DNA of 48,691 bases from Solirubrobacterales bacterium (GTDB lineage: Bacteria; Actinomycetota; Thermoleophilia; Solirubrobacterales; Solirubrobacteraceae), in the NCBI GenBank assembly GCA_027315255.1, contig DAHUYL010000035.1, forward strand, positions 1 through 48,691. Reading direction: 5' to 3'. Position numbers and translations under genes: made by a program. Shown here piece by piece: positions 6,408-27,329 of the stretch (within the stretch, counting starts at the first letter, position 1; every line of letters starts with the position of its first letter). The notes beneath the pieces were generated by a model that made no database searches, was not told the origin of the DNA, and saw nothing but the letters and a program-made list of their open reading frames with translations.

Positions 6408-7838
6408 TCAGGCCGCCACGCGCGGTGACCGCTGACGGCCGCCGAGCGCCGCCGCGAGCGCCTCCCGCACGGTCCGGTGCGAGTCGGGCGAGAGGGCCGG
6501 CGCGAGCCCGAACTTCGTGGCCTCGGCGATCCGCCGATCGCCGTGCGCGACGCTCCGCAGCTCGCCGGTCAGCCCCAGCTCGCCGAAGCACGCGAGCGGC
6601 CGCCCCGCCGGCGATGTCATCGCAACGCCGCGTGCGGCGCTCGCGACCGCCAGCGCGACCGCGAGGTCGGCGCCGGGCTCGTCGGCCCGGATTCCCCCGA
6701 CGACGTTGACGAACACGTCGGCGGTGCCGAGCCCGATCCCGCCGTGGCGCCCGAGCACCGCCAGCACGAGCGCGAGCCGGTTGCGGTCGAAGCCGGCGGC
6801 GACCCGGCGCGGCGGCTCGAGCTCGGACGGCGAGACCAGCGCCTGCACCTCCACCAGCAGCGGCCGCGAGCCCTGCATCGCGCACAGCACGACGCTGCCG
6901 GGAGCGCGCGTCGCCTCCGAGACGAACATCGCCGAGGCGTCCAGCACTTCGACGAGGCCGTGGTCGCGCATCTCGAACACGCCCGCCTCGTTGGTCGAGC
7001 CGAACCGATTCTTGATCGCCCGCACGGTCCGGTAGGTGCGCTCGCGCTCGCCCTCGAACTGGAGCACGCAGTCGACCAGGTGCTCGAGCACCCGCGGCCC
7101 GGCGAGCGCGCCGTCCTTGGTCACGTGGCCGACGAGCAGCACGCAGATCCCGCGAGCCTTGGCCACGCGCAGGATCTCGCCGGCGACCTCGCGGACCTGC
7201 CCGACCGAGCCGGCGGCGCTCGAGAGCTCGGCGCTGTGCAGCGTCTGCACGGAGTCGATCACGCACACCTCGGGACGCACCGACTCGAGCGTCGCCAGCA
7301 CCGCCCCGAGGTCGGTCTCCGCGATGACCGGGATCGCGAGCGGAGTGCCGCCGGTCAGCCGCTGGGCGCGCAGCCGGATCTGGGCGGCGCTCTCCTCGGC
7401 GGACACGTACAGCGTCCGGCGCCCGGCCGCGGTCAGGTGGGCGAGCGCCATCGTCGTCAGGGTCGACTTGCCGATTCCGGGGGCACCGCCGATCAGCACC
7501 AACGACCCGGGCACGAGCCCGCCTCCGAGGACGCCGTCGAGCTCGCCGATCCCGGTCTGCAGGCGCGCGTGCGCAGCGGCGGCCACCTCGCCGAGGGGCA
7601 CAGGTGTCAGCGCGCCGGTGCTGCCCGGTATGGCAGCACCGGCGCGGGCAGCGCGCTGCCCGTGGCGGCGAACCTCCTCGACGAGCGTGTTCCACTCCCC
7701 GCAGGCGGAGCACTGGCCCGCCCAGCGGGACTCCTCGTGGCCGCAGGCAGAGCAGACGTGAATGGTTGCCGGACGTGCGATCGACTGAGCGTACGGGGCA
7801 CCCAGGACGTCGCCGCGGTCCAGCCCGCTTTGTGACAC
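6408..7838 (-). CDS. radA: DNA repair protein RadA (Sms)
   Basis: RadA (476 residues) is a RecA-like, DnaB-like hexameric motor that drives branch migration in recombination. A four-cysteine zinc finger (C29, C32, C43, C46) opens the protein. Walker A is GGAPGIGKST (117-126), the RadA-specific motif is KNRFGSTNE (276-284), and a Lon-protease-like domain fills the C-terminus. The GTG at 7838 has AGAGG nine bases upstream and is the most likely start. That start codon sits inside a CRP-type palindrome (7831-7846), so occupancy could affect radA expression. It heads the minus-strand operon running to sigH. Confidence 0.95.
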   Translation of the reverse strand: MSQSGLDRGDVLGAPYAQSIARPATIHVCSACGHEESRWAGQCSACGEWNTLVEEVRRHGQRAARAGAAIPGSTGALTPVPLGEVAAAAHARLQTGIGELDGVLGGGLVPGSLVLIGGAPGIGKSTLTTMALAHLTAAGRRTLYVSAEESAAQIRLRAQRLTGGTPLAIPVIAETDLGAVLATLESVRPEVCVIDSVQTLHSAELSSAAGSVGQVREVAGEILRVAKARGICVLLVGHVTKDGALAGPRVLEHLVDCVLQFEGERERTYRTVRAIKNRFGSTNEAGVFEMRDHGLVEVLDASAMFVSEATRAPGSVVLCAMQGSRPLLVEVQALVSPSELEPPRRVAAGFDRNRLALVLAVLGRHGGIGLGTADVFVNVVGGIRADEPGADLAVALAVASAARGVAMTSPAGRPLACFGELGLTGELRSVAHGDRRIAEATKFGLAPALSPDSHRTVREALAAALGGRQRSPRVAA

Positions 7839-7846
7839 TTGTCACG
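7831..7846. promoter_or_regulatory. CRP/GlxR-type palindrome between radA and the sulfur/Hdr operon
   Basis: The sequence TGTGACACTTGTCACG contains a six-base perfect inverted repeat (GTGACA/TGTCAC) and matches the CRP-family consensus TGTGA-N6-TCACA at nine of ten fixed positions. It overlaps the radA GTG start and lies about 103 bases upstream of the dsrE2 start. It is therefore placed to repress radA and/or to activate the divergent Hdr operon. The regulator is not in the window. Assignment to a cAMP-receptor-like factor rests on consensus alone. Confidence 0.5.
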
Positions 7847-7948
7847 CCTCTGTGAGCGTACCGGTTTTCCACTGTACCGTCGCGTAGTTGTGACGGATGA
7901 TCCAGCGCCCGCCGCGGCGGACACTCGCTTCAAACAGGAGGTTTCAAG

Positions 7949-8521
7949 ATGCTCGACGAGCAGGCCCGCGCCACCATGTTGGCGCCAACCGAGGAGGACA
8001 TCCGGCGCATCGTCCGTTCGGAGCTGGACCGCGCCGCCAAGCAGGAGGCGGCCGCAGGCAAGGCGGCATTCATCGCGTCGAAGGGAACGCTCGACTGGGC
8101 CTACCCGCCGCTGATCCTCGCAACCGCGGCCGCCGCGTCGGGAATCGAGTCGTCGGTGTTCTTCACCTTCTACGGCCTGAACATCATCCACAAGGACTTC
8201 GAGCGGCTGCTGAAGGTGACACCGCTCGGAAACCCGGCGATGCCGATGCCGGTGACGATGCCCAACTTCGTGCTCGGGCTGCCCGGCATGGGACCGCTCG
8301 CGACGAAGATGATGAAGTCGAAGTTCACCGCCAAGCACGTCGCCGGGATCGGCGAGCTGCTCGACACCGCGAAGGAGCTCGAGGTGCGGCTGATCGCGTG
8401 CGAGATGACCGTCGACGTGTTCGGTTACGCGCACGAGGACTTCATCGACGGTGTCGAGTTCGGCGGTGCCGCCGCCTTCCTCGCCGAGGCGCGTCACGCA
8501 CACGTGACCCTGTTCATATAG
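7949..8521 (+). CDS. DsrE2-like sulfur-carrier protein (DsrE/DsrF/DrsH-like family)
   Basis: This protein (190 residues) belongs to the DsrE2 or peroxiredoxin-like branch of the DsrE superfamily, which carries persulfide sulfur. The helical N-terminus is followed by SSVFFTFYGLNII and a hydrophobic stretch rich in Met, Pro and Gly typical of DsrE2. The single cysteine, C151 in LIACEMTVDVFGY, is the family's sulfur-binding residue. A consensus AGGAGGT at 7936-7942 precedes the ATG by six bases, the strongest ribosome site in this operon. It is the first of ten co-directional genes and is followed nine bases later by a TusA gene. Membrane association of DsrE2 proteins is known in the family but not certain here. 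Confidence 0.85.
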   Translation: MLDEQARATMLAPTEEDIRRIVRSELDRAAKQEAAAGKAAFIASKGTLDWAYPPLILATAAAASGIESSVFFTFYGLNIIHKDFERLLKVTPLGNPAMPMPVTMPNFVLGLPGMGPLATKMMKSKFTAKHVAGIGELLDTAKELEVRLIACEMTVDVFGYAHEDFIDGVEFGGAAAFLAEARHAHVTLFI

Positions 8522-8530
8522 GAGCTGTCG

Positions 8531-8779
8531 ATGCCCGATACGCAGATCAACGCTGACGAGGTGCTCGATGCGCGCCTGCTGTCCTGCCCGATGCCGGTGG
8601 TCAAGACCGCGAAGGCGATCAAGGCGCTGGCTCCGGGTCAGGTGCTGAAGCTGATGGCCACCGACCGCGGCTCGATTGCCGACATCCCCGCATGGGCGGG
8701 CAGCACCGGCAACACGCTGCTCGAGTGGCATGAGGAAGGCGACACACTCGTCTTCTACGTACGCAAGGAAGGAGCGTAG
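8531..8779 (+). CDS. tusA: TusA-family sulfurtransferase (copy 1)
   Basis: A small (82 residues) TusA/SirA-type sulfur carrier. The active cysteine is C19 in the signature LLSCPMPVVKTAKAI, followed by the usual beta-alpha-beta fold with a conserved AGS/GNT loop and the C-terminal strand TLVFYVRK. TusA passes persulfide sulfur between sulfurtransferases such as DsrE proteins and acceptors such as rhodaneses or sHdr complexes. AGGAG lies upstream of the ATG. The gene sits between two DsrE-type genes, making DsrE2-TusA a probable donor/acceptor pair. A second, different TusA is encoded at 9167. Confidence 0.9.
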   Translation: MPDTQINADEVLDARLLSCPMPVVKTAKAIKALAPGQVLKLMATDRGSIADIPAWAGSTGNTLLEWHEEGDTLVFYVRKEGA

Positions 8780-8784
8780 TCACC

Positions 8785-9153
8785 ATGGCCGAGACCGAGA
8801 AGCTCGTGGTGATGGTCACACACGGGCAGGCGGACGACGAGCTGGCGACGATCCCATTCGCGATGGCCGCGGCGGCGGTTGCATCCGACGTCGAGGTCGT
8901 GATGGGATTCCAGGGCGACGGCTGCGAGCTCGTGAAGAAGGGCGTCGCCGAGACGATCGCGGCGCCCGAGTTCGCGCCGCTGCGCGAGCTGCTACCGACG
9001 ATTCAGGAGCTCGGCGGCAAGATCCTCGTCTGCAACCCGTGCATCAGGAAGCGCGGCTGGACCGAGGACGACCTGGTCGACGGCGCGGAAGTGGTCGCCG
9101 CCGCGCGGTTCGTCGCCGAGATCACCTCCGCAACCAACGCCCTCGTCTACTGA
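8785..9153 (+). CDS. DsrE-family protein (second, small type)
   Basis: A 122-residue DsrE/F-fold protein starting KLVVMVTHGQADDELATIPF, typical of the small soluble DsrE group. Cysteines are C47 (GDGCELV), C83 and C86 in LVCNPCIRKRG; the CxxC pair occupies the position of the DsrE active-site loop and could carry persulfide sulfur or form a disulfide. A GGAAGGAG lies upstream. It follows the first TusA by five bases and precedes the second by 13. It differs from the DsrE2 protein at 7949, so this is not a recent tandem duplication. Confidence 0.82.
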   Translation: MAETEKLVVMVTHGQADDELATIPFAMAAAAVASDVEVVMGFQGDGCELVKKGVAETIAAPEFAPLRELLPTIQELGGKILVCNPCIRKRGWTEDDLVDGAEVVAAARFVAEITSATNALVY

Positions 9154-9166
9154 CAGGAGATGACAG

Positions 9167-9433
9167 ATGACTGACGTACTGACAATTCCAGAGGTCGACG
9201 CGCCCGCCGCGGCCAAGACGGTCGACGCGCGCGGCGCTGCCTGCCCGGGCCCGCTGCTCGAGGCCAAGAAGGCGATGGGCGGCGTGCCGCTCGGCGCGGT
9301 GCTCGAGCTGTGGTCGAGCGACTCGCAGACGAAGAACGACGTTGCCGCCTGGTCGCACAAGGTCGGACACGAGTTCCTCGGCGTCGCCGGCGCGGAGGGC
9401 TACGAGCGCGTCTTCATCCGGCGGGCGAAGTAA
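9167..9433 (+). CDS. tusA: TusA-family sulfurtransferase (copy 2)
   Basis: An 88-residue TusA-type carrier with the signature ARGAACPGPLLEAKKAM, where C26 is the predicted persulfide cysteine in a CPGP motif, whereas copy 1 has CPMP. The rest follows the family: SDSQTKNDVAAWS and a C-terminal ERVFIRRAK. AGGAG lies upstream of the ATG. The two TusA proteins are clearly divergent and probably have different partners. This copy is four bases from the MvhD-like gene, suggesting that it is the one serving the Hdr core (inference). Confidence 0.9.
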   Translation: MTDVLTIPEVDAPAAAKTVDARGAACPGPLLEAKKAMGGVPLGAVLELWSSDSQTKNDVAAWSHKVGHEFLGVAGAEGYERVFIRRAK

Positions 9434-9437
9434 CACC

Positions 9438-9821
9438 ATGCCGCGCGTGCTCGTGTTCTCGACGAACGCGATCTCGGACCCCGGGATCGACCTCGCCGGC
9501 AGCTCGCACATGCACTACTCGCCGGACGTGGTCGTCGTCAGCCTTCCGTGCACGAGGGCGATCAAGCCGAGCTGGATCGTGTACGCGCTCGAGCGCGGGT
9601 TCGACGGTGTGTTCATCGCCTCGGACGGCGACGAGTGCGGGTACCTGTCTGACTGCAGCGAGCGCTCGGCGCGGATCGTGTCGAGAACGCAGGCGCTGCT
9701 GTCGGAGCATGGAATCGACGGGCACCGGCTCAAGCTGGCGGCGATCTGCTCTGTGTGCGCGGCGCCGTACACCAAGCACGTGCGCGAGTTCACCCAGGCG
9801 CTCGCCGAGCTGGAGGGCTGA
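9438..9821 (+). CDS. MvhD-like (hydrogenase iron-sulfur subunit family) electron-transfer protein
   Basis: A 127-residue protein of the MvhD/FrhD-type iron-sulfur family. In methanogens MvhD carries a [2Fe-2S] cluster between hydrogenase and HdrA. Five cysteines, C38 (SLPCTRAI), C67 and C73 (DECGYLSDC), C104 and C107 (ICSVCAAP), occupy the expected positions, after the characteristic ALERGFDGVFI. No hydrogenase gene is nearby. Together with the GltD module in the next gene this suggests that electrons come from or go to NAD(P)H instead. The ATG follows the TusA stop by four bases; earlier in-frame starts would overlap tusA and are rejected. Confidence 0.85.
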   Translation: MPRVLVFSTNAISDPGIDLAGSSHMHYSPDVVVVSLPCTRAIKPSWIVYALERGFDGVFIASDGDECGYLSDCSERSARIVSRTQALLSEHGIDGHRLKLAAICSVCAAPYTKHVREFTQALAELEG

Positions 9822-9824
9822 GCA

Positions 9825-12521
9825 ATGGACTACGACGTGCTCGTGATCGGCAGCGGCATCGGCGGCATGGAGTCGGCGCTCAAGCTCGGCGACATGGGCT
9901 ACAAGGTGCTGGTCGTCGAGCGCGACCCGAGTGTCGGCGGCAAGATGATCCTGCTCAGCAAGGTGTTCCCGACGCTCGACTGCGCAAGCTGCATCTCGAC
10001 GCCGAAGATGGCCGCGACCGTCCATCACCCGAATGTGACCGTGCTGACCGCCTCGGAGGTGCAGGAGATCGTCTCCGACGGGGGCGGTGGCTTCCACGCG
10101 ACGGTGGAGCGCCGCCCGCGGTTCGTCGACGAGTCGCTCTGCACCGGTTGCCGTCAGTGCGAGCAGGCGTGCACGGTCGCGGTGCCGGACCAGTTCAACG
10201 GCGAGCTCGTCTCGCGGCGCGCCGCGTACATCGCGTTCCCGCAGGCGGTCCCGCAGAAGGCGCTGATCGAGCGGGCCGGCACCTCCCCGTGCACGTTCAC
10301 CTGCCCGGCCGGCATCAAGGCCCACGGGTACGTGTCGCTGATTCGCAGTGGCGAGTACGAGAAGGCGTTCGCACTGGTCGCCGAGACGACACCGCTTGTC
10401 GGCAGCCTCGGACGTGCCTGCTACGCGCCGTGCGAGGGTGAGTGCACCCGCGGCGAGCTCGAGGGCACGTTGCCGATCCGCCGGTTGAAGCGGTTCATCG
10501 CCGACGCGCACTACTCCGTCACCGAGCCCGCCGCGCCAGTGCACGCACCGCTGAACGGCGGCAGGCACATCGCGATCGTCGGCTCGGGCCCGGCCGGATT
10601 GACCGCCGCCTGGCATCTCGCCCACGCCGGCCACCGCGTCAAGATCTTCGAGGCCGCACCCGTGGCCGGCGGCGCGCTGCGGCACGCGATCCCTTCCTAC
10701 CGGCTGCCCGCCGAGATCGTCGAGCGTGACATCGCCAACGTCACCGCGCTCGGGGTCGAGATCGTCACCGGGGTACGGGTGACCGACCTCGAGGAGCTGC
10801 GGCGCGAGGGCTACGACGCGGTGCTGATCGCCACCGGCACACCGGTCGCGATGCGGCTGGGGGTGCCAGGCGAAGAGCTCGAGCAGGTCTCGAGCGCGCT
10901 CGCGTTCCTGCGTGACGTCAAGCTCGGGCACGCGCCGCGGCTGGACGGCAAAGCGGTCGTCGTCGTCGGTGGCGGCAACGTCGCGATCGACGCCGCCCGC
11001 AGCGCGCGGCGGCTGGGCGCCCGTGCCGTGCGGATGGCGTGCCTCGAGACACGCGAGCAGATGCCGGCGTACGACTGGGAGGTTCAGGAGGCGCTGGCGG
11101 AGGGCGTCGAGCTGCACGACGGCTGGGGGATCGGCGGCTTCACCTCGGAGTGGGACGAGGTCTGCTCCGTGGAGCTGAAGCGGTGCACCTCCGTGTTCGA
11201 CGCCGACGGTCGCTTCAGCCCGAGCTACGAGGAGTCGCTCACCGACACGCTCGAATGCGACGTCGCGATCGTGGCGGTCGGGATGCGGCCGGACACCGAA
11301 GCCTTCCCGGTGCTCGCCCCTGAGGGCGCGCGCACGCTGAAGGCCGACGCGGAGACGCTGCAGACCTCGCGCGAGTGGGTGTTCGCCGCAGGCGACGCAG
11401 TCACCGACCCGCGGACGATCGCCGAGGCCGTCGGGCACGGCGCCCGCGCCGCGCACATGATCGACCGCTTCCTGCGAGGCCTGGTGCTCGAAGGGTTCGA
11501 GGAGCCGATCCCGGTCGTCGACAAGCGCGAGGTGCTTCACCGCCAGCACAGCCACAGCCGTCGCGACCCGCTCGCGGGGGCGCTGCGCGCCGCGTCCGAT
11601 CCGACCGATTTCGCCGAGATCGAGCCGCCGCTGACCGAGGCCGAGGCCCGCACGGCCGCCGGCCGCTGCCTCGACTGCGGCGTCTGCTCTGAGTGCCACG
11701 AGTGCCTGGCCGCCTGTCCCGCCGACGCGATCGACCTCGGCATGCGGGCGCAGACGCTGGCGATCGACGTCGGCTCTGTGATCGTCTCGACCGGCTACGC
11801 GCTGTTTCCGGCTGATGCAAAGCCACAGTACGGGTACGGCCGCTACAAGAACGTGATCACGGGCGCGCAGATGGAGCGGCTGCTGGCGCCGACCCGCCCC
11901 TACAACACCGTCCTGCGACCCGGCGACGGCAGGGTGCCCGAGCGGATCGCGTACGTGATGTGCACGGGCTCGCGCGATCAGACGGTCGGAAACCCGCTGT
12001 GCTCGAAGTTCTGCTGCATGTACTCGATCAAGCAGAACCAGCTGATCATGGGCGCGCTGCCGCTCGCCGAGGTGACGGTCCATTACATCGACGTGCGCGC
12101 GGTCGGCAAGGGCTACGACGAGTTCTTCGAGCAGGCGAAGGCGATGGGCGCGAGCTTCGTCAAGGGCCGGGTCGCGTCGATCACCGAACTGGACGGCGGC
12201 AACCTCCTGCTCCGTTACGAGGACATCGACGGCGGCGGTCACATCGCCGAGGCCGAGTACGACATGGTCGTACTGGCCGTCGGCGTGCTGCCGAATCGCG
12301 ACGCCGCGCGCCTGTTCAAGGTGGAGCAGCTCCGGCTCGATGCCCACGACTACGTCGACGAGGTCGACCCCGACGCCAACCCGGCCCGGACCAGCATCCC
12401 GGGCGTGTTCGTGGCCGGCGCCGCGTCGGGCCCGAGGGACATCCCCGAGTCGATCCTGCACGCAGGGGCCGCCGTCGCGCAGGCGGCGGCGCACGTGGAC
12501 CGGCTGAGGGTGCTGGCATGA
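9825..12521 (+). CDS. HdrA-type flavoprotein with inserted GltD-like NAD(P)H module
   Basis: An 898-residue chimera. Residues 1-150 are the N-terminal HdrA part: GSGIGGME FAD fold, DCASC..PKM (C53, C56) and a [4Fe-4S] site C106/C109/C112/C116. Residues 151-600 resemble the glutamate synthase small subunit (GltD): N-terminal cysteines C156, C160, C199, C203, C207, an FAD fold IVGSGPAGLTAAWHLA, and an NAD(P)H fold VVVVGGGNVAIDAARSA. Residues 611-898 resume HdrA, with a cysteine-rich run C615-C631, then C713 and CSKFCC (C726, C730, C731), and end GVFVAGAASGPRDI. The GltD unit therefore sits inside HdrA rather than at an end. Predicted role: a two-flavin core passing electrons between NAD(P)H and the Hdr complex. 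The stop overlaps the next start (ATGA). A glutamate-synthase role is unlikely because there is no gltB. Confidence 0.88.
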   Translation: MDYDVLVIGSGIGGMESALKLGDMGYKVLVVERDPSVGGKMILLSKVFPTLDCASCISTPKMAATVHHPNVTVLTASEVQEIVSDGGGGFHATVERRPRFVDESLCTGCRQCEQACTVAVPDQFNGELVSRRAAYIAFPQAVPQKALIERAGTSPCTFTCPAGIKAHGYVSLIRSGEYEKAFALVAETTPLVGSLGRACYAPCEGECTRGELEGTLPIRRLKRFIADAHYSVTEPAAPVHAPLNGGRHIAIVGSGPAGLTAAWHLAHAGHRVKIFEAAPVAGGALRHAIPSYRLPAEIVERDIANVTALGVEIVTGVRVTDLEELRREGYDAVLIATGTPVAMRLGVPGEELEQVSSALAFLRDVKLGHAPRLDGKAVVVVGGGNVAIDAARSARRLGARAVRMACLETREQMPAYDWEVQEALAEGVELHDGWGIGGFTSEWDEVCSVELKRCTSVFDADGRFSPSYEESLTDTLECDVAIVAVGMRPDTEAFPVLAPEGARTLKADAETLQTSREWVFAAGDAVTDPRTIAEAVGHGARAAHMIDRFLRGLVLEGFEEPIPVVDKREVLHRQHSHSRRDPLAGALRAASDPTDFAEIEPPLTEAEARTAAGRCLDCGVCSECHECLAACPADAIDLGMRAQTLAIDVGSVIVSTGYALFPADAKPQYGYGRYKNVITGAQMERLLAPTRPYNTVLRPGDGRVPERIAYVMCTGSRDQTVGNPLCSKFCCMYSIKQNQLIMGALPLAEVTVHYIDVRAVGKGYDEFFEQAKAMGASFVKGRVASITELDGGNLLLRYEDIDGGGHIAEAEYDMVVLAVGVLPNRDAARLFKVEQLRLDAHDYVDEVDPDANPARTSIPGVFVAGAASGPRDIPESILHAGAAVAQAAAHVDRLRVLA

Positions 12522-14239
12522 GCGAGCGGCGCATCGGTGTGTACGTCTGCCAGTGCGGCGGCAACATCTCCGACTACGTCGACGTCGAGCAGGTCGTCGG
12601 CGCGGTCGCGAACGACCCTGGCGTGGTCGTCGCCAGAACGGCGATGTTCACCTGCTCGGACGCGACCCAGCAGGAGATCGAGGCGGACATCCGCGAGCAG
12701 CAGCTCGACGGGCTGGTGGTGGCGTCCTGCTCACCCAAGCTGCACACGTTCACCTTCCGCGAGGCCGCGCGCCGGGCCGGACTGAACCCGTACGAGTACA
12801 CGCAGGTCAACATCCGCGAGCAGTGCTCGTGGACGCACACCGACGACCGGACCGGGGCAACGCGCAAGGCGATGCAACTGGTGCGCGCGGGGATCGCACG
12901 GACGCGCCTGACCGAGCCGCTCGAACCGACGGCCGTGCAGACGACGCCGAGCGCGCTCGTGATCGGCGGCGGGGTCGCTGGCATGCGGGCGGCGATCGGG
13001 CTCGCCGACCTGGGGCTGGGTGTGTTCCTGGTCGAGCGCGAGGCCCGGCTGTGCGGGCATACCGGTGAGCTCGGCGAGCTGTTCCCGAACGCGGGTACGG
13101 GGAGCGGGCTGGTCGCGCGGCTGCTCGAACAGATCCGCGAGCGCCCGCAGATCGCCGTGTTCACGAGCGCCGAGGTGACCGCCAAGTCAGGCACGTACGG
13201 CAACTACCGCGCCGTGATCCGCGCCGGCGAGGAGTCGATCCATGCCGAGATCGGCCAGATCATCGTCGCCACCGGCTTCGACAGCTACGAGCCCGCGGCC
13301 GGCGAGTACGGATACGGAATCCAGGGGGTGCTCACGCTCCCCGAGTTCCGCCGGATGCTCGATTCGCGGGAGGATCTGATCGTCGGCGGGCGCAAGCCGG
13401 AGAGCATCGCGTACGTCTACTGCGTCGGCAGCCGCTGCGAGGAGCATCCCTACTGCTCGCGCTTCTGCTGCAGCGCCGCCGTGCACGCGTCGCTGCTCGC
13501 CTCCGACCGCGTCGCCGGCGTGCGCCAGTACCACCTGTACCGCGACATGCGTACGTACGGCCGCAACGAGCTGATGCTGTCCGAGTCCCGTGAGCGCGGG
13601 TCCCTGTATCTGAAGTTCGCCGACGGTGACCCACCCGAGGTGACACACGACGGCCAGCGGCTGTCGGTGACCGTGCGTGACCAGCTGACCGGCGGCGACG
13701 AGCTGACGATCCCCGCCGATCTCGTCGTGCTCGTCACCGGGATGGTGCCGCAGGCAAATGACCGGCTCGTCAAGACGCTGAAGCTGCCGGTCGGCGGCGA
13801 CGGCTTCTTCAACGAGATCCACCCGAAGCTGCGCCCGGTCGAGACCGTCGTCGACGGCGTGCTGATCGCAGGCGCCTGCCAGGGCCCGAAGACGGTCGCG
13901 GAGAGCGTCACCTCCGGGTTGGCCGCGGTCTCACAGACCGCGGCCGTGCTGAAACGCGGGGTGGCGGAGCTCGACCCGCAGATCGCGACCGTTCACGCGA
14001 GCGCCTGCAGCGGCTGTGGCGCCTGCGTCGAGGCGTGCCCGTTCGGCGCAATCTCGATGATCGCGCGTGACGGTGGTGAGGTGGCGCAGATCGATCGCGC
14101 CGGCTGCAAGGGCTGCGGCGCCTGCGCGCCCGTGTGCGGCGAGGACGCGATCGACCTGCTCGGCTACACCGACGGCCAGGTGCGAGCGATGATCGACGCC
14201 CTGATCCAGATCCCACCCACCCACCCCCACCTGCCATGA
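12518..14239 (+). CDS. hdrA: HdrA-like CoB-CoM heterodisulfide reductase subunit A (second HdrA)
   Basis: A 573-residue HdrA-type flavoprotein. The N-domain opens IGVYVCQCGGNISD (C11, C13) with further cysteines C46 and C71. The FAD fold is VIGGGVAGMRAAIGLADLG (148 onwards). C302 and YCSRFCC (C313, C317, C318) correspond to the HdrA cluster in the thioredoxin-reductase-like domain. Two C-terminal [4Fe-4S] sites are C497/C500/C503/C507 and C530/C533/C536/C540. It lacks the DCxxC..PKM motif and the middle ferredoxin insert found in the chimeric HdrA, so the two proteins look complementary. The start is fixed by ATGA overlap with the preceding stop; the stop overlaps the winged-helix gene. Methanogen HdrA is longer (about 650). 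Confidence 0.9.
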   Translation: MSERRIGVYVCQCGGNISDYVDVEQVVGAVANDPGVVVARTAMFTCSDATQQEIEADIREQQLDGLVVASCSPKLHTFTFREAARRAGLNPYEYTQVNIREQCSWTHTDDRTGATRKAMQLVRAGIARTRLTEPLEPTAVQTTPSALVIGGGVAGMRAAIGLADLGLGVFLVEREARLCGHTGELGELFPNAGTGSGLVARLLEQIRERPQIAVFTSAEVTAKSGTYGNYRAVIRAGEESIHAEIGQIIVATGFDSYEPAAGEYGYGIQGVLTLPEFRRMLDSREDLIVGGRKPESIAYVYCVGSRCEEHPYCSRFCCSAAVHASLLASDRVAGVRQYHLYRDMRTYGRNELMLSESRERGSLYLKFADGDPPEVTHDGQRLSVTVRDQLTGGDELTIPADLVVLVTGMVPQANDRLVKTLKLPVGGDGFFNEIHPKLRPVETVVDGVLIAGACQGPKTVAESVTSGLAAVSQTAAVLKRGVAELDPQIATVHASACSGCGACVEACPFGAISMIARDGGEVAQIDRAGCKGCGACAPVCGEDAIDLLGYTDGQVRAMIDALIQIPPTHPHLP

Positions 14240-14469
14240 GCCGTGACGTGCGCGAGGTGATCCGCGAGGAGCCGCTGCGGCGCAGCCGGCTGCTCGAGCT
14301 GCTGGCGGCCGGGCCGCTGACGGTTCCCGAGCTGGCGGCCGCCGCCGGCCATCCGCAGGACGAGGTGATGATCTGGATGATGGGGCTGCGCAAGTACGGA
14401 TACGTGGCCGAGCAGCCGGGCGTCGAGGACGACGGCTACTGCCGTTACGCGGTGGTGGACGGGCGATGA
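14236..14469 (+). CDS. Small winged-helix-like protein embedded in the Hdr operon
   Basis: A 77-residue protein with a helix-turn-helix pattern, RSRLLELLAAGPLTVPELA then HPQDEVMIWMMGLRKYGYV, followed by a short wing ending in YCRYAVVDGR. There is no second domain for ligand sensing, only one cysteine, and no signal or membrane segment. Both ends overlap neighbours by ATGA (hdrA before, hdrC after), so it is translated in step with the complex. It could be a DNA-binding autoregulator or a structural adaptor that uses a winged-helix fold for protein contacts. I cannot name a family. Confidence 0.8.
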   Translation: MSRDVREVIREEPLRRSRLLELLAAGPLTVPELAAAAGHPQDEVMIWMMGLRKYGYVAEQPGVEDDGYCRYAVVDGR

Positions 14470-14777
14470 CCGCGCTCGCCACAGTCGGCGGCGCGGCCCT
14501 GGGCGACAAGCTGCGTGCGCTCGGCGCCTTCGACGCCGAGACGTGCATGAGCTGCGGCATCTGCACGGCGACCTGCCCGCTGGGGATCGACGTGCTGCCG
14601 CGGCAGCTGCTGCGTCACGCAGCGTTGGGGCTGGAGCAGCGGATACGCGACGAGCAGGAGGTGGTGTTCTCCTGCCTGCTGTGCCGTGCGTGCGAGCAGA
14701 GCTGCCCCGCGGGAGTCCACATCGCGCAGGACATCCGGCTGCTGCGCCGCTGGCTGCTCGAGCAGGGAGGTGAGTGA
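14466..14777 (+). CDS. hdrC: HdrC-like iron-sulfur subunit (two 4Fe-4S clusters)
   Basis: A 103-residue ferredoxin-like subunit with two CxxCxxCxxxCP motifs: C27/C30/C33/C37 (CMSCGICTATCP) and C70/C73/C76/C80 (CLLCRACEQSCP). This matches HdrC, which wires HdrA to the catalytic subunit HdrB. The protein is shorter than methanogen HdrC and has no membrane segment, so the complex is predicted to be cytosolic. The start overlaps the winged-helix stop and the stop overlaps the hdrB start, giving an HdrC-HdrB stoichiometric pair. Confidence 0.9.
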   Translation: MTALATVGGAALGDKLRALGAFDAETCMSCGICTATCPLGIDVLPRQLLRHAALGLEQRIRDEQEVVFSCLLCRACEQSCPAGVHIAQDIRLLRRWLLEQGGE

Positions 14778-15787
14778 TGGCGCTCGCGACCGCAGACGTG
14801 GTCGGGATCCTCGGCGACAACCTGCGGCTGCGCGGCTCGGTGCTGCCGATCCCGAACCGGCGGGCGGTGCACTGGACCCGTGGGCTCGAGCTGCGCCGCG
14901 GCGGCGCGACGGTGCTCTACACCGGGCAGATGTACCAGCTGGTTCCGTACATCGAGCGGCTGGTGGCGGCCGAGCAGCAGCTCGCCGACTCCCCCCTCGC
15001 GCGGTTCACGGGGCTAGGGCGTCGAGTGAACAGGATCGTCAACGTGTCGGCGTTCATGGGCCGGCCGTCACGCACCGAGCGTGAGCGCTCCGAGGAGGCT
15101 CCGCGGCGCGTCGTCGCGCTGCTGCGCGGCGCCGGCGTCGAGCCTGGCTGCCTGTTCGAGGATGACCTGTACTCGGGAACGCTCGCGTACGACCTCGGGC
15201 TCGACGAGCTGGTCGCCGCGCACGCCCGGCGCGTGCAGGCCGTGCTGCGCCGGCACGGCGTCCGCACCGCGATCACGATCGACCCGCACACCACGCATAT
15301 GCTGCGCACGATCTATCCGACCTTGCTCGACGGCTGGGACGTCGACGTCCGCAGCTACCTCGAGGTGCTCGCCGGGGCTCTGGCCCCTGCGGATGCGCTG
15401 ACGGCGGCGCCTTACGCCTCGCCGCCGCCGGCGCCTGTCAGCGGGTCCGGCGCGGCCGCCGTCGCCCTGCACGACTCGTGCGTCTACGCCCGCCACGAGG
15501 GAGTCGTCGAGGAGCCACGCCGGCTGCTCGCCGCCGCCGGCGTCGCCGTGCTCGAGCCCGAGCAGGCGGGAAAGTTCACGTGGTGCTGCGGCGGGCCGGC
15601 GGAGGCGCTGTTCCCGGAGCGAGCGCTGGCGACGGCGCAGCAGCGGGTGGCGCAGTTGCGAGCCGTCTCGAGCGAGTGCGTGACGATGTGCCCGCTGTGC
15701 CTCGTCAACCTGTCGAAGGCGGCGGACGGAGCCGTGCGGTTCCGCGACATCGCCGAGGTGCTCCTCGACGCTCGCGGGGATCGCTGA
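14774..15787 (+). CDS. hdrB: HdrB-like CCG-domain protein with degenerate N-terminal half
   Basis: A 337-residue protein of the HdrB/GlpC/LutA CCG family, the catalytic subunit in Hdr complexes. The C-terminal CCG domain is intact: HDSCVYARH (C236), CCGG (C271-C272) and CVTMCPLC (C302, C306, C309). The N-terminal half keeps the sequence pattern but not the ligands: TGQMYQL (Q52 where the family has Cys), EDDLYSG in place of CCG-YSG, and DPHTTHML in place of the CxxC segment. So only one non-cubane cluster is expected, instead of two as in methanogen HdrB. Two adjacent ATGs occur at the start. Its end is five bases from the convergent ctaA end, with no room for a separate terminator. Confidence 0.86.
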   Translation: MMALATADVVGILGDNLRLRGSVLPIPNRRAVHWTRGLELRRGGATVLYTGQMYQLVPYIERLVAAEQQLADSPLARFTGLGRRVNRIVNVSAFMGRPSRTERERSEEAPRRVVALLRGAGVEPGCLFEDDLYSGTLAYDLGLDELVAAHARRVQAVLRRHGVRTAITIDPHTTHMLRTIYPTLLDGWDVDVRSYLEVLAGALAPADALTAAPYASPPPAPVSGSGAAAVALHDSCVYARHEGVVEEPRRLLAAAGVAVLEPEQAGKFTWCCGGPAEALFPERALATAQQRVAQLRAVSSECVTMCPLCLVNLSKAADGAVRFRDIAEVLLDARGDR

Positions 15788-15792
15788 CCCCG

Positions 15793-16845
15793 TCACCGCG
15801 TCGGGGGCGTTCTCGGGAGTGCCGACCAGCGGCTGTCGCCCGCGGCGGTCCGCGGCTCGTGGTGCAATCGACGTGCGCGGAGATCCGCGGGCAACGGCTC
15901 CGAGTGCGTGGCCGGCGCAGGGGGTTCGCCAGATCGATCGTCAGCCGGCGCAACGCTCGCCGGGAGCGTCCGCGTCAGCGCCAGCAGGACCGCCAGTGCG
16001 ACCCAGGTGAGCGATCCGAACGACGAGTGCACGACCTCGCTCGCCACCGTGTCGGCGATCCCCACGATCACGAACCCGAGGAACGCCTGCACGACGTACA
16101 GACCGACGATCACGGCCGCAACCGTCCGGATCAGCGGTTGCCCGGCCCGCTCGGCACGACTGCGAACCAGCACCACGACCGCGAACAGCAGCATCGCACC
16201 GGCCCATGCCCGGTGGACCATCATGATCACGACGTCGTGACCCAGCGACGGCAGCAGCGCGCCGCGGCACAGCGGGTAGCTGTGGCCACAGATGGTGTCG
16301 CTGCCGGCGTTGGCGAGCGTCGAGCCGGCGAGCAGCAGCCCGTAGCTGAGCACGACGAACCAGTGCGTCAGCCGCCAGAAGCGATCACGGCTGGCGCCGG
16401 CGCCCGGGTAGCGCAGCCGCACCGCGAGCAGGACGAGCGAGAAGACGAGCAGGGAGGCGCCGCCGTAGTGGAGCACGACCGTCCACGCGACGTTGTCGAG
16501 GATCACGGTGATCCCGCCCAGGACGATCTGCAGCGCCAGCATCGCCAGCACGAACAGCATCGGCCGAATCACGCCGCGCTCGCCGCGCAGGCGCCGGAGC
16601 ACCACCACCGCGGTCGCGATCACGCCGACGCTGAGCAGCGTCACGATCCAGCGGTGGATCTCCTCGATCAGCGCGTGATGCCCGCCGGCGATCAGCTGCC
16701 CCTTGCAGATCGGCCAGTCGGGGCACCCCATCCCGGACTGACTGGCACGGACATAAGCTCCGACGGTCATCAAGCCCCAGCCGAGCACGGCCAGCGCGGC
16801 GACGCCCGAGGCGAGCCGCGACCGGTTTGGATCCTCGCCGCGCAT
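15793..16845 (-). CDS. ctaA: Heme A synthase (COX15/CtaA family)
   Basis: This integral membrane enzyme oxidises the C8 methyl of heme O to the formyl group of heme A for aa3-type cytochrome oxidase. About eight membrane helices can be read. Two extracytoplasmic cysteine pairs are present (positions from the alternative GTG at 16854): C44/C50 in GCPDWPIC and C189/C196 in CGHSYPLC. Heme-binding histidines occur in EEIHRWIV, LHYGG, MMVHRAW and VVHSSFG. The C-terminal 45 residues are polar and variable. I favour the ATG at 16845; the GTG at 16854 adds three residues. No ctaB or cox genes are adjacent. Its tail faces hdrB. Confidence 0.92.
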   Translation of the reverse strand: MRGEDPNRSRLASGVAALAVLGWGLMTVGAYVRASQSGMGCPDWPICKGQLIAGGHHALIEEIHRWIVTLLSVGVIATAVVVLRRLRGERGVIRPMLFVLAMLALQIVLGGITVILDNVAWTVVLHYGGASLLVFSLVLLAVRLRYPGAGASRDRFWRLTHWFVVLSYGLLLAGSTLANAGSDTICGHSYPLCRGALLPSLGHDVVIMMVHRAWAGAMLLFAVVVLVRSRAERAGQPLIRTVAAVIVGLYVVQAFLGFVIVGIADTVASEVVHSSFGSLTWVALAVLLALTRTLPASVAPADDRSGEPPAPATHSEPLPADLRARRLHHEPRTAAGDSRWSALPRTPPTR

Positions 16846-16996
16846 GGACGTCACAGGTGCTGCACCGTATGGGTTATGCCCGTGCTCGGGCGTCGGGGAG
16901 GTATCCGCAAGTCACGGCGGGAGAACTACTGATCCACCGGTTCGCCGGACGCTACTCAAGCCGAACCCGGTCGGAACCGATGACCTACTGAGCACG

Positions 16997-24690: not shown

Positions 24691-25893
24691 CTATGAGCGA
24701 GACGAGGTCGATTTCGAGGCCGCGACCCAGTCTAACAGTCGCCTCCCAGGCGCCGGGACGCATCGGGAAAGCGCTGCTCGCGGCCGGGATGCCGCGAGCA
24801 GCGGGCGGGCAGCCGCCGCTGCGACGACCAGCTCGATCGCGATGTACGGGAGGATCTCGGTGACGCTTCGGTCGGTCATCCCGACCGGCGCCGCCCAGGC
24901 CAGCAGCGGGACGGCCCACAACGGGCCGAGCCGGGGCGAGAGCAGCGCGATCGGGGCGTACAGCAGGACCAGATAGTGGGGCCAGGCGACCGGCGAGGCC
25001 GCAAGCGCCGCGACCGCCGCGAGCGCGAATGCGTGGCGGTCGGTATCCGGATCACGTGCAAGCCGCTCGGCGCCGATCAGGAGCGTGCCGGCGAGCGCCA
25101 GGCCCGCCGCCGTTGCAACCGTTCTGCCAATGCCGAGCGCGGCCCCCAGGCTGAGGATCGAGACGCCGGCCGGGCCGTTGATCGTCGACTCGTCGCCGAG
25201 GATGTGCGGATAGCTGCCGAGCGTCCCGAAGCCGACCACCGCCCAGCCGACCCCACAGGCGAGCACCGCCGCCGCCCCGGCGATCGCTGCGGCCTTCACG
25301 CGCCGCGCGAGCAGCAGGTAGACGCCGAACGGCCAGAGGAACAGTTTCGCGGTCACCGCGGCCGCGGTCGCGAGCGCGGCCGGGACCGTCCGCCGCCGGA
25401 AGCGCCAGGCGAGCGCGACCGCGAGCAGCAGCAGCTCGTTCACCTGCCCGAGGCGCAGCGAGTAGACGAGCGGCCAGCTCAGCAGCGCAGCTCCGAAGCA
25501 GCGCCAGTCGCGCACGCCGAAGAGCCGGAGCGCGCATCCGAATGCAATCAGGCTGAGCCCTGCGAATGCGAGCCCGGCGGCCTTGAACGGAAGCAGCCCG
25601 AACGGGACGACCGCCAGCAGCGTCGGCGCCGGATAGACCGGCACCGAGAACAGCGGTGTCCTGCCCGTGCCGGCTGCGGGGAGCGCTGCCAGATGCGAGA
25701 GCAGCGCGGCGTCATAGGGGTCGCGACCGTGCAGGATCGCGACAGCGGCGTTGTACAGGCCCCCGTGAAAGTCGTAGGCGAACGTCGATGAGCCGAACGT
25801 GACGGCAAGGAAGGCGCTCACGAGCGCGACCGGGGCGACGCCGAACACGAGGACGCTCACGACATTGCCGAGAGCCCGCGCGAGCGGTCTCAT
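24691..25893 (-). CDS. GT87-family polyprenol-phosphate-sugar glycosyltransferase (second unit)
   Basis: A polytopic membrane protein of 400 residues resembling glycosyltransferase family 87 (mannosyltransferase-like, DUF2029). Characteristic features are the first extracytoplasmic loop with DFHGGLYNAAVAILHGRDPY (catalytic Asp), the YPAPTLLAVVPFGLLP segment and SLRLGQVNELLL. GT87 enzymes use polyprenyl-phosphate mannose or arabinose for envelope glycans. The ATG at 25893 overlaps the upstream stop (ATGA). The frame is open far upstream, but there it is antisense-like arginine-rich sequence. It is the last gene of a four-gene membrane-protein operon; its acceptor is unknown. Confidence 0.82.
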   Translation of the reverse strand: MRPLARALGNVVSVLVFGVAPVALVSAFLAVTFGSSTFAYDFHGGLYNAAVAILHGRDPYDAALLSHLAALPAAGTGRTPLFSVPVYPAPTLLAVVPFGLLPFKAAGLAFAGLSLIAFGCALRLFGVRDWRCFGAALLSWPLVYSLRLGQVNELLLLAVALAWRFRRRTVPAALATAAAVTAKLFLWPFGVYLLLARRVKAAAIAGAAAVLACGVGWAVVGFGTLGSYPHILGDESTINGPAGVSILSLGAALGIGRTVATAAGLALAGTLLIGAERLARDPDTDRHAFALAAVAALAASPVAWPHYLVLLYAPIALLSPRLGPLWAVPLLAWAAPVGMTDRSVTEILPYIAIELVVAAAAARPLLAASRPRAALSRCVPAPGRRLLDWVAASKSTSSRS

Positions 25894-27329
25894 CGACGGC
25901 GCACGAAGATCACAGCGCTCGCATCGGCGCTTGCCATGCGGAACGCAGGGTCCGCCGCCACGGAGGCCGCCGCCGCGCTGCCGGCCGTCGCGAGGACGAC
26001 CCGGATCCGCGGATTTGCAAGGATCAGCGCAGCGCCGCGCGAACCGTCGACCCAGTCGAGGTAGGCGGCCTGGACGGGGCGGGCGAAGGCATCGAGGGGA
26101 TTGCCCGCCCAGATCCGTCCGCCGGCCAAGGCGACCTGCTCGGCGGGGATCGCGTCGGCGAGGATCGGCTCGCCTCTCGCGAGCGCGAGCGTGCGAGAGA
26201 GGATCGAGCTGCTCGCACCGGGCGTGATCGGGCGCTGGGCGACCACGACCACGAGCAGGACGGCGGCAAGCGCGGCTCCGGCGACCGGCAGGGTGTTCGC
26301 GGCAGCGGCCCTGAGCGCGACGAAGCGACCGCTCAGCCGCACGCCAAGCGGTGGCGCGGCCGACACAAGCGGCGCGAGGAACAGTAGGAGCCAGACGCCG
26401 TCGCGTCCGGCCTTGACCGTCATCACGACGAGGGCCGCCCCGACCTCCGCCTCCCACAGCGCCGGGCGGCGGCGGATGACCTGTACCAGCATCATCACGG
26501 CGACGGCGATCAGCACCGGATCGAACGGCATCGCGCCGAGCGGGGCCCACTGCCCGACGCCGCGCTCGGCGGCCAGGTTCGTGACCAGACCGCGGTAGTA
26601 GTCGATGCTCGCGAGCCCGGCCGGCGTCAGGCACAGAGCCAGCAGACTGACGGCGGCCACACCGGCCGCCGTCAGCGGACCGGAGCGTCGCCGACTGAGG
26701 ACCAGGTACGCGATCACCGTCACCTCGCCCATCAAGACCGCGCCGTGCAGGTTCGCCCACGCCGCGATCAGCGCCGGCGCCAGCCAGATGCGCCGCGACG
26801 GTCGCCTCGCGTCCGCCCGCAGCAGCGCCACGAGCGCCGGGAACGCGACGAGCGAGAACAGCTGCACGCGGACCAGCGCGAGGCTCGTGAACGACCCGAG
26901 CGCGGCGAGCAGCAGGGCGACTGCGGTCGCGCCGGTGCGCGCGCCCTGGGCGCGGGCGTCGCGCGCGAGGATCGTGAAGCACGCGGCGACTGCGACCACC
27001 TGAGCGAGTACGAAGCCTCGCTCGCCGAACCACGAGCTGAGCGCGTGCAGCACGAGCTCAGCCGCCACCAGCGTGTTCGCCCAGTGGCTGGTCGGTGCGG
27101 CCGCGAACGGCACGCCGTGAGGGACACCGCCGCTCGTCGCGACCACCCGCCCGAGCGCCGCGAGCCAGCGGAGGTCGGCGCCCACGGTCGATACCGCCCC
27201 CGCCAGGCCGGCGATCAAGGCCACAGTGGCGGCCAGTCGAACGCCGTCGAGGTCGATCCGCGCGGCGAGCGCGGGCGCTCGAGGTTGAGGCGAGCGGGCG
27301 AGCGGCTCGGTGACGGCGTGCGAGCTCAT
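25890..27329 (-). CDS. Polytopic membrane protein, paralogue of the 28421 gene
   Basis: A 479-residue integral membrane protein with about 10-12 helices and a C-terminal extracytoplasmic domain of around 110 residues (from about SSSILSRTLAL). I do not recognise a named family, but the layout resembles GT-C-type glycosyltransferases. It shares a distinctive stretch with the protein encoded at 28421: RRPSRRIWLAP and WANLHGAVL here, RRPSRRALLVF and WGNLHGSAT there. Both also end in a domain that mentions a residue pattern of buried Asp and Trp. The start is set by ATGA overlap with the preceding GT87 stop. Confidence 0.75.
   Translation of the reverse strand: MSSHAVTEPLARSPQPRAPALAARIDLDGVRLAATVALIAGLAGAVSTVGADLRWLAALGRVVATSGGVPHGVPFAAAPTSHWANTLVAAELVLHALSSWFGERGFVLAQVVAVAACFTILARDARAQGARTGATAVALLLAALGSFTSLALVRVQLFSLVAFPALVALLRADARRPSRRIWLAPALIAAWANLHGAVLMGEVTVIAYLVLSRRRSGPLTAAGVAAVSLLALCLTPAGLASIDYYRGLVTNLAAERGVGQWAPLGAMPFDPVLIAVAVMMLVQVIRRRPALWEAEVGAALVVMTVKAGRDGVWLLLFLAPLVSAAPPLGVRLSGRFVALRAAAANTLPVAGAALAAVLLVVVVAQRPITPGASSSILSRTLALARGEPILADAIPAEQVALAGGRIWAGNPLDAFARPVQAAYLDWVDGSRGAALILANPRIRVVLATAGSAAAASVAADPAFRMASADASAVIFVRRR

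Follow-up and report, generated by a model that had tools for sequence, protein, structure and literature searches.

The stretch of DNA analyzed here (the window) comprises 48,691 nucleotides of contig DAHUYL010000035.1 from a metagenome-assembled genome (MAG) of a Solirubrobacterales bacterium and carries, at positions 7949-15787, ten plus-strand genes, all of them co-directional, as the original prediction had stated. The first four encode sulfur carriers of the DsrE2, TusA and DsrE families, and the following six encode an MvhD-type subunit, two HdrA-type proteins, a small winged-helix protein, HdrC and an HdrB-like protein. Chance grouping of these genes is implausible, as their order recurs in relatives and the genome (92.2% complete) shows no TusA match other than the two inside the operon. 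The operon may be read as encoding one electron-transfer complex together with its sulfur carriers. Our tentative interpretation, to which we give a little less than an even chance, is that of an NAD(H)-linked, probably bifurcating Hdr/Qmo-type complex which, as we infer for both substrate and direction, interconverts sulfide and carrier-bound sulfane sulfur, with oxidation slightly favored.

Sulfur carriers and redox core

The identities originally named for the genes are supported by Pfam and NCBIfam matches or, in the case of the winged-helix protein, by weak matches below cut-off and a predicted ArsR-type fold. DsrE2 (7949..8521; 190 amino acids, aa) matches PF13686 with 163.8 bits and NF047629 (SulfCarrDsrE2) with 196.7 bits, the latter just below its cut-off of 210, and Cys151 is kept in all 54 aligned rows, window included. 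It is followed by TusA-1 (8531..8779; 82 aa, CPMP motif; PF01206, 79.6 bits), which is mostly confined to the ten-gene form of the locus and shows Cys19 in 16 of 16 rows, and by a DsrE-family protein with a CxxC motif (8785..9153; 122 aa; PF02635, 56.9 bits), Cys83 being present in 25 and Cys86 in 22 of 26 rows. The carrier encoded closest to MvhD is TusA-2 (9167..9433; 88 aa, CPGP motif; PF01206, 63.2 bits), whose Cys26 is kept throughout (74/74 rows).

The redox core begins with an MvhD/FlpD [2Fe-2S] electron-transfer subunit (9438..9821; 127 aa; PF02662, 92.4 bits), in which each of five cysteines is found in 75 of 75 rows. The next gene (9825..12521; 898 aa) encodes an HdrA-type FAD protein whose internal ferredoxin domain is interrupted by a GltD insert, hereafter HdrAG, as assigned by Pfam, NCBIfam and alignment to solved HdrA chains. 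Its HdrA match is split at residues 148/614, with a GltD-type match at 144-648; according to the alignment, the FAD domain and internal ferredoxin are kept, while the N-terminal domain and the C-terminal ferredoxin are missing. The second HdrA (12518..14239; 573 aa; NF040770, 480.9 bits; alignment to 5odc chain A) possesses the N-terminal domain and the C-terminal two-cluster ferredoxin and lacks the internal one. Judged by their sequences, HdrAG and the second HdrA are complementary halves of a Moorella-type HdrA.

Two HdrA residues, K409 and E356, have been named as marks of a bifurcating flavin (PMC12054007; here and below, statements on published systems refer to the accessible parts of the papers). 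The HdrAG of the window carries equivalents of both, as placed by eye on printed alignments. The lysine is retained in 77 of 77 rows (76 loci and the window; L012, L028, L060 and L079 were dropped with coverage below 90%), which keeps the possibility of bifurcation raised in the original prediction. In the second HdrA of the window, E356 is replaced by R and K409 by H; across its alignment (71 loci and the window), K409 is missing from all 72 rows, with H in 67 and Q in five. The counted cysteine ligands are conserved in HdrAG, MvhD, HdrC and the single CCG site of HdrB.

The coenzyme can be predicted from a triplet of residues, YRR indicating NADP(H) in NfnB/DsrL (PMC7596348). By this rule, NAD(H) rather than NADP(H) is the predicted coenzyme of the window's complex, since its HdrAG carries the NAD-type triplet CLE. 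Among the 77 aligned rows, YRR occurs in 45 and CLE or SLE in 32, and the type changed once on the tree. For this member, the NAD(P)H coupling first proposed is narrowed to a predicted use of NAD(H).

The remaining three genes are arranged behind the second HdrA. The winged-helix protein (14236..14469; 77 aa) was modeled with AlphaFold2 at a mean predicted local distance difference test (pLDDT) score of 90.2, and the model resembles ArsR/SmtB folds (Foldseek to SmtB, E 4.5e-4). A sensing of metals or persulfide by this protein finds no support in its cysteines, none being conserved in 74 rows; the Foldseek matches are ordinary ArsR/MarR folds. Its fixed place in the gene order points to a subunit or assembly factor no less than to a regulator. 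HdrC (14466..14777; 103 aa) contains two [4Fe-4S] motifs and matches TIGR03290 with 46.2 bits, below the cut-off of 160; each of its eight cysteines is present in 72 of 72 rows. The HdrB-like protein (14774..15787; 337 aa; PF02754, 36.7 bits) carries one CCG (non-cubane) motif, with none in its first half, and five cysteines found in 37 of 37 rows each. Its model (mean pLDDT 82) has M. smegmatis EtfD as nearest structure, with LutA and HdrB chains next, which fits a CCG site of the electron-transfer type. The next HdrB relatives in seven other family genomes reach at most 112 bits, versus 571-595 for the operon's own protein. The CCG family search of the window's genome did not list the window's own HdrB, which was found by alignment search; absences in family searches thus carry a risk of missed members, as with this one-site HdrB, in a MAG that is 92.2% complete.

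Conservation and exchange of the output subunits

A scan of GTDB genome contigs with HdrAG yielded 205 relatives, the best 80 of which were taken, so that all counts describe the closest part of the family. Neighborhoods were searched with profiles from the ten proteins; flanks extended over at most 10 kb and were often cut, loci with too little flank were omitted from each count, and two pairs among the 80 loci share one MAG each. TusA was found upstream of HdrAG in 67 of 67 loci and MvhD in 73 of 75; downstream, HdrA followed in 73 of 74, the winged helix in 71 of 72 and HdrC in 64 of 65. A DsrE-family gene was present in 40 of 42 loci. Some of the misses (L028, L060) come from HdrAG matches split by frame or domain. 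The expected conservation of carriers together with Hdr genes is thus borne out. The complete ten-gene order recurs in 11 of 80 loci (nine without deviation; L007 has one more DsrE2 and, in L079, HdrAG is split over two frames), the core order being far more widespread.

The 80 loci derive from Actinomycetota (34), Chloroflexota (21), Bacillota (20), Candidatus Dormiibacterota (3), one deltaproteobacterial MAG and one genome without phylum label; the core TusA-MvhD-HdrAG-HdrA-winged helix-HdrC is common to the four named phyla and the deltaproteobacterial MAG. Among 296 genomes from Actinomycetota, the phylum of the window, six exceed 1000 bits with an HdrAG-like match, including the genome of the window and those of L011, L023 and L047, which fall into the same class and are named as actinobacteria. 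TusA and MvhD lie upstream in five of the six; in the sixth (G253, 1139 bits), MvhD is located downstream and TusA is missing. On the tree, which was built by FastTree only and shows the sister rows on long branches, the window falls into a set of 15 rows (nine Actinomycetota, three Dormiibacterota, one Chloroflexota and two unlabeled).

In 31 relatives, a longer protein without a CCG motif follows the winged helix instead of a lone HdrC and then HdrB. It comprises about 380-400 aa where complete (open frames 314-489 aa, some reaching contig ends), and all 31 match the QmoC family at E below 1e-10; the match shown in detail covers the full length with 206 bits, below the equivalog cut-off of 300. 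These proteins contain five to seven hydrophobic segments, and each of four histidines recurs in 30-31 of 31. Lacking CCG, matching QmoC and bearing hydrophobic segments, the proteins of about 390 aa are not HdrC-HdrB fusions. At least three changes between the HdrB form and the QmoC form are required on the tree; the coenzyme change and the output form provide a single independent pair there. As 31 relatives have replaced HdrC and HdrB with a QmoC-like protein, the HdrB site is exchangeable, and as TusA stays with both forms wherever upstream DNA sufficed, HdrB is more likely an electron outlet than an obligatory sulfur site. None of the ten proteins of the window has a hydrophobic segment. 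The description of the complex as soluble consequently fits the window and not the family, with its QmoC-like membrane forms.

In six Chloroflexota loci (L031, L034, L041, L042, L051 and L053), a rhodanese-type gene, Pfam-checked in L041 only, lies shortly after the QmoC-like gene. All of these except L041 carry TusA- and DsrE2-type genes further on, on the minus strand, and also a gene that we take to be of the TauE type.

Proposed mechanism and competing explanations

Six sister loci lack TusA and DsrE as far as could be found in them. In three (L105 5869-10266, L106 7953-12473 and L113 6542-11479, all from the phylum of the window), HdrAG and HdrA are joined in one open reading frame (ORF) of 1465, 1506 and 1645 aa, respectively, followed by MvhD, with HdrC/HdrB-type genes alongside (CCG checked in L105 and L106). 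Hydrogenase genes of the NiFe type come after MvhD in L107 and L113, and the arrangement of L113 suggests an H2:NAD(P):disulfide complex. Since sister and published loci have a hydrogenase, MetVF or formate dehydrogenase beside MvhD, the simplest reading, by analogy, is that TusA/DsrE would fill the substrate place there.

In the proposed mechanism, NAD(H) would exchange a hydride at GltD, which would form the low-potential arm at the place where an ordinary HdrA meets ferredoxin. The high-potential arm would be HdrC-HdrB, or QmoC and menaquinone in kin, and the mid-potential couple, entering via MvhD, would pair sulfide (or a thiol) with sulfane sulfur bound to TusA/DsrE as a persulfide. In the host of the window, sulfide would be converted into carrier persulfide while NADH and a reduced thiol are formed, a direction slightly preferred over the reverse. 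Potentials are approximately -320 mV for NAD, -270 mV for sulfur/sulfide and -75 mV for menaquinone; a sulfide-level donor would therefore lie between the two acceptors, as bifurcation needs. The oxidation of NADH by a GltD-bearing HdrA and the role of the lysine in bifurcation follow from known families; persulfide/sulfide as third redox partner, its contact at MvhD and the direction are what we infer beyond them. A more far-reaching claim, which we consider doubtful though worth stating, is that of a new class of bifurcating enzyme, with sulfide/protein-bound sulfane sulfur as the mid-potential couple, TusA/DsrE in the place of the hydrogenase at MvhD, GltD-HdrA passing the low-potential electrons to NAD(P)+, and menaquinone (QmoC form) or a disulfide (HdrB form) receiving those of the other arm. 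If true, NAD(P)H could be gained from sulfur at the sulfide level with no need for reverse electron transport.

Several points weigh against the NAD(H)-linked sulfane-sulfur interpretation given first. The E356 position of HdrAG holds glutamate in 15 and aspartate in 62 of 77 rows, so that the E356/K409 pair is not strictly conserved. As TusA and DsrE have no redox cofactor, their direct electron exchange with MvhD would be new chemistry, and the non-cubane site of HdrB, where present, could itself be the sulfur site. Two loci with full flank, L031 and L051, are without a DsrE-family gene on the operon strand; they do carry TusA and DsrE2 genes further on, on the other strand. In the sister loci L105 (FrhB-type/ferredoxin), L111 (ferredoxin-type) and L106 (no Pfam match), no clear substrate enzyme follows MvhD. 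The operon is also patchy, a full-length HdrAG occurring in none of eight other genomes of the same order among the matches listed; together with the mixing of phyla on the tree, this suggests horizontal transfer. Finally, no biochemistry of the operon was found, and the hints on which the direction rests are weak. Cultured hosts exist (Desulfofundulus, Desulfoscipio, Desulfotruncus and Cellulomonas), and the reading is therefore testable.

The rival that fares best is the reverse direction, an NADH-driven reductase of sulfane sulfur (persulfide, polysulfide or thiosulfonate) that would release the sulfur of TusA/DsrE as sulfide, serving assimilation, detoxification or sulfur reduction; an HdrB thiol or a quinol would act as the second source or sink of electrons. 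It is regarded as improbable but still a serious contender. Whole-genome family searches covered 51 hosts (the genomes of 50 of the 80 loci and that of the window) and identified DsrA over cut-off in 11, mostly sulfate-reducer genera or Peptococcaceae, in which oxidation is not an obvious need. Some match at E ≤ 0.001 occurred in 24 of the 51, as it did in 8 of 14 control genomes, none of these being over cut-off. Six of the DsrA-host loci (L038, L049, L057, L061, L066 and L067, of Desulfotomaculum type) carry a divergent upstream gene, for example L038 8679-9032 on the minus strand, that we take to belong to the CsoR/CstR family and presumably to sense persulfide. The NADP-type YRR motif is found in 10 of the 11 DsrA-host loci, the other (L060) not being aligned, and in DsrL this triplet goes with an enzyme tied to reduction (PMC7596348). 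Against a reductase in the host of the window, though not decisively, stand the NAD-type triplet of the window and its closest kin, an oxidative-type mark in DsrL, and the adjoining COX15/CtaA gene, which suggests an aerobic host.

Alternatively, the carriers might serve another task, such as tRNA or cofactor thiolation or Fe-S repair, while the Hdr part reduces an unrelated disulfide or feeds quinone, so that co-location would be regulatory only. With no other TusA found in the genome, the pair in the operon might do a household job, and TusA is said to have pleiotropic roles in E. coli. We nevertheless judge this explanation quite unlikely: in different phyla, TusA and MvhD keep their place directly before HdrAG even as other parts are swapped, and where the sister loci lack TusA/DsrE, two of the six have a hydrogenase after MvhD.

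Still less probable, in our estimate, is an LbpA-independent relative of sHdr whose HdrB site would oxidize the sulfane sulfur of the carriers as far as sulfite. sHdr clusters do share Hdr-like subunits, TusA and DsrE-type carriers with the locus (PMC6067878); GltD and MvhD are not named for them in the same source. The locus has one HdrC-HdrB pair, not two, and the replacement of HdrB by a QmoC-like protein in 31 relatives shows that HdrB is not a general sulfur site. No linked lipoate-binding protein had been noted for the locus, and this applies to the family as well: when all ORFs of the window and of the 80 loci, as far as their flanks were available, were searched with six GcvH/LbpA-like queries, no GcvH/LbpA relative turned up. 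The matches obtained are taken as ArsR relatives because all came from an ArsR-GcvH fusion query and the other five queries matched nothing. A fusion of this kind is encoded at L092 6449-7330, minus strand (genome G020, contig C9), where a single ORF of 293 aa contains both an ArsR-type regulator (HTH_5, 49.5 bits) and a GcvH/LbpA-like domain (GCV_H, 41.6 bits); a lipoate-binding protein may here have been turned into a sulfur sensor. Of 62 loci, 17 have an ArsR-type gene upstream on the operon strand. The genome of the window contains one full-length GCV_H match and two fragments in long frames. In some hosts, LbpA-looking GcvH-like genes sit elsewhere, for example as a tandem pair in L090, and sHdr and the window-type system may coexist in them. 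A universal linkage to lbpA or dsrAB, as in classical sHdr, is not observed, no LbpA having been found in the available flanks and DsrA over cut-off being confined to 11 of 51 hosts, not including that of the window.

A Qmo complex linking quinone or thiols to adenosine 5'-phosphosulfate (APS) reductase is hardly credible: two HdrA-type proteins and MvhD with a QmoC-like or HdrBC output do recall QmoABC and QmoAB-HdrBC, for which the GltD insertion and the carriers are not reported in the accessible text (PMC10504309), and AprA (E ≤ 1e-50) is present in only 10 of 51 genomes and was not detected in that of the window. Other candidates were rejected outright: classical sHdr as the family (no linked LbpA found, wrong subunit set), classical Qmo as the function (AprA missing in 41 of 51 hosts), reverse sulfite reduction of the DsrABL type, as the genome of the window shows a DsrA match of 36 bits and none over cut-off (DsrB was not searched apart), and YTD-type disproportionation clusters, which include YedE (PMC12998232, PMC13293266), a gene for which 6 of 51 hosts, that of the window not among them, gave a match at E below 1e-10.

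Flanking DNA and comparison with known systems

The genes of the operon had been described as mostly overlapping by ATGA; in fact, only four of nine junctions overlap, each by four bases (ATGA at 12518, 14236 and 14466, GTGA at 14774), and the remaining five, from dsrE2 through hdrAG, are gaps of 3-13 bases. Upstream lies a minus-strand gene (6408-7838; ATPase/AAA_25 and a rubredoxin-type zinc ribbon by Pfam) that we take, by its architecture, to be RadA; downstream, the COX15/CtaA gene occupies 15793-16854 on the minus strand. The divergent intergenic region before dsrE2 (7839-7948) is a likely promoter region, a candidate from sequence. Within 7600-16000, a simple consensus scan detected neither promoter-like nor terminator-like sites, hence no promoter before the operon either. 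A perfect palindrome, TGTGACACTTGTCACG, is located at 7831-7846, at the start of the minus-strand neighbor and about 100 bases before dsrE2, and presumably resembles a CRP/FNR-type site. As a CRP/FNR-like site it was rejected, since a pattern search with one mismatch allowed gave five occurrences versus 3.13 expected. Elsewhere in the window, positions 26001-28000 show a strong local AT skew of 0.319 over a 704-aa minus-strand ORF (25890-28004) without a Pfam match at E 1e-5, which may be a spurious or low-complexity frame.

In the accessible parts of the literature, the GltD-HdrA engine, the Qmo/HdrBC exchange and the sHdr carriers are each already known separately. A pairing of TusA/DsrE with a GltD-HdrA engine was not found in the open-licence full-text literature of PMC, most subscription papers lying outside it. 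To the known partners of HdrA modules, namely hydrogenases, formate dehydrogenase, MetVF, APS reductase and sHdr, the family of the window adds sulfur-carrier proteins. Within it, the coenzyme motif has changed once and the output at least three times, in bacteria mostly without DsrA, AprA and YedE matches. If the proposed function is true, many uncultured actinobacteria and Chloroflexota, several labeled fen, bog or palsa, hold an unrecognized sulfur-redox enzyme, and the genes of "type II" Qmo, whose role is left open in PMC10504309, may gain a candidate role.

The pair of HdrA-GltD and HdrA is not new in itself, as it appears as one protein in M. thermoacetica (PMC9430772) and apparently as two genes in D. 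reducens (PMC4759654). In M. thermoacetica, an N-terminal ferredoxin/TrxR-like part of HdrA is interrupted by GltD and followed by an HdrA without internal ferredoxin, and the protein is stated to oxidize NADH (PMC9430772). The HdrCBA-MvhD-MetVF complex of Moorella thermoacetica and Sporomusa ovata thus corresponds to the window in its HdrC, HdrB and MvhD and in a Moorella HdrA equivalent to HdrAG and HdrA joined; it differs in its fused HdrAs and in MetVF as substrate enzyme, and TusA, DsrE or a winged-helix gene are not mentioned in the accessible parts of the paper (PMC9430772). Desulfotomaculum reducens Dred_1325-1330, whose proteins are more abundant on sulfate, has separate HdrC, HdrB, HdrA1 (large, with putative NADH-binding domains), HdrA and MvhD like the window, but formate dehydrogenase instead of carriers, with TusA, DsrE and sulfurtransferase unmentioned in the main text (PMC4759654). 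Type III HdrA of ANME-1/Bathyarchaeota likewise has GltD at the internal ferredoxin domain together with K409 and E356, and NAD has been proposed as its coenzyme (PMC12054007). The HdrAG of the window shares the insertion site and the equivalents of both residues; type III HdrA, however, is archaeal and occurs with mvhADG or other hdrA genes, and its description does not mention TusA in the main text (PMC12054007).

The locus had been said to match neither sHdr nor Qmo. This holds for sHdr, whereas the kinship with Qmo was understated, given the 31 relatives with a QmoC-like subunit. QmoABC and QmoAB-HdrBC comprise two HdrA-type proteins with a membrane QmoC or, alternatively, HdrBC (PMC10504309), and the same combination is found here, with the HdrBC side in the window and QmoC in the 31 kin. 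Unlike the window, Qmo has AprAB as partner, and neither GltD nor linked sulfur carriers are mentioned in the available text (PMC10504309). sHdr-LbpA clusters also combine Hdr-like subunits with TusA and DsrE-type carriers, but need LbpA and have two HdrC-HdrB pairs, one HdrA and, in group III, EtfBA, GltD again being unmentioned in the sections consulted (PMC6067878); in place of their layout hdrC1B1A-hyp-hdrC2B2, the window has one HdrC, one HdrB and two HdrAs. DsrL is a sulfur-tied NAD(P)H:acceptor Fe-S flavoprotein of the GltD/NfnB kind, as is proposed for the HdrAG of the window, and works with DsrAB (PMC7596348); in the genome of the window, no DsrA over cut-off was found. Compared with the HdrABC-MvhD module, MvhD, HdrA, HdrC and HdrB are all present, a cytoplasmic HdrB described in print having two CCG sites (PMC4911364) and that of the window and its kin one.

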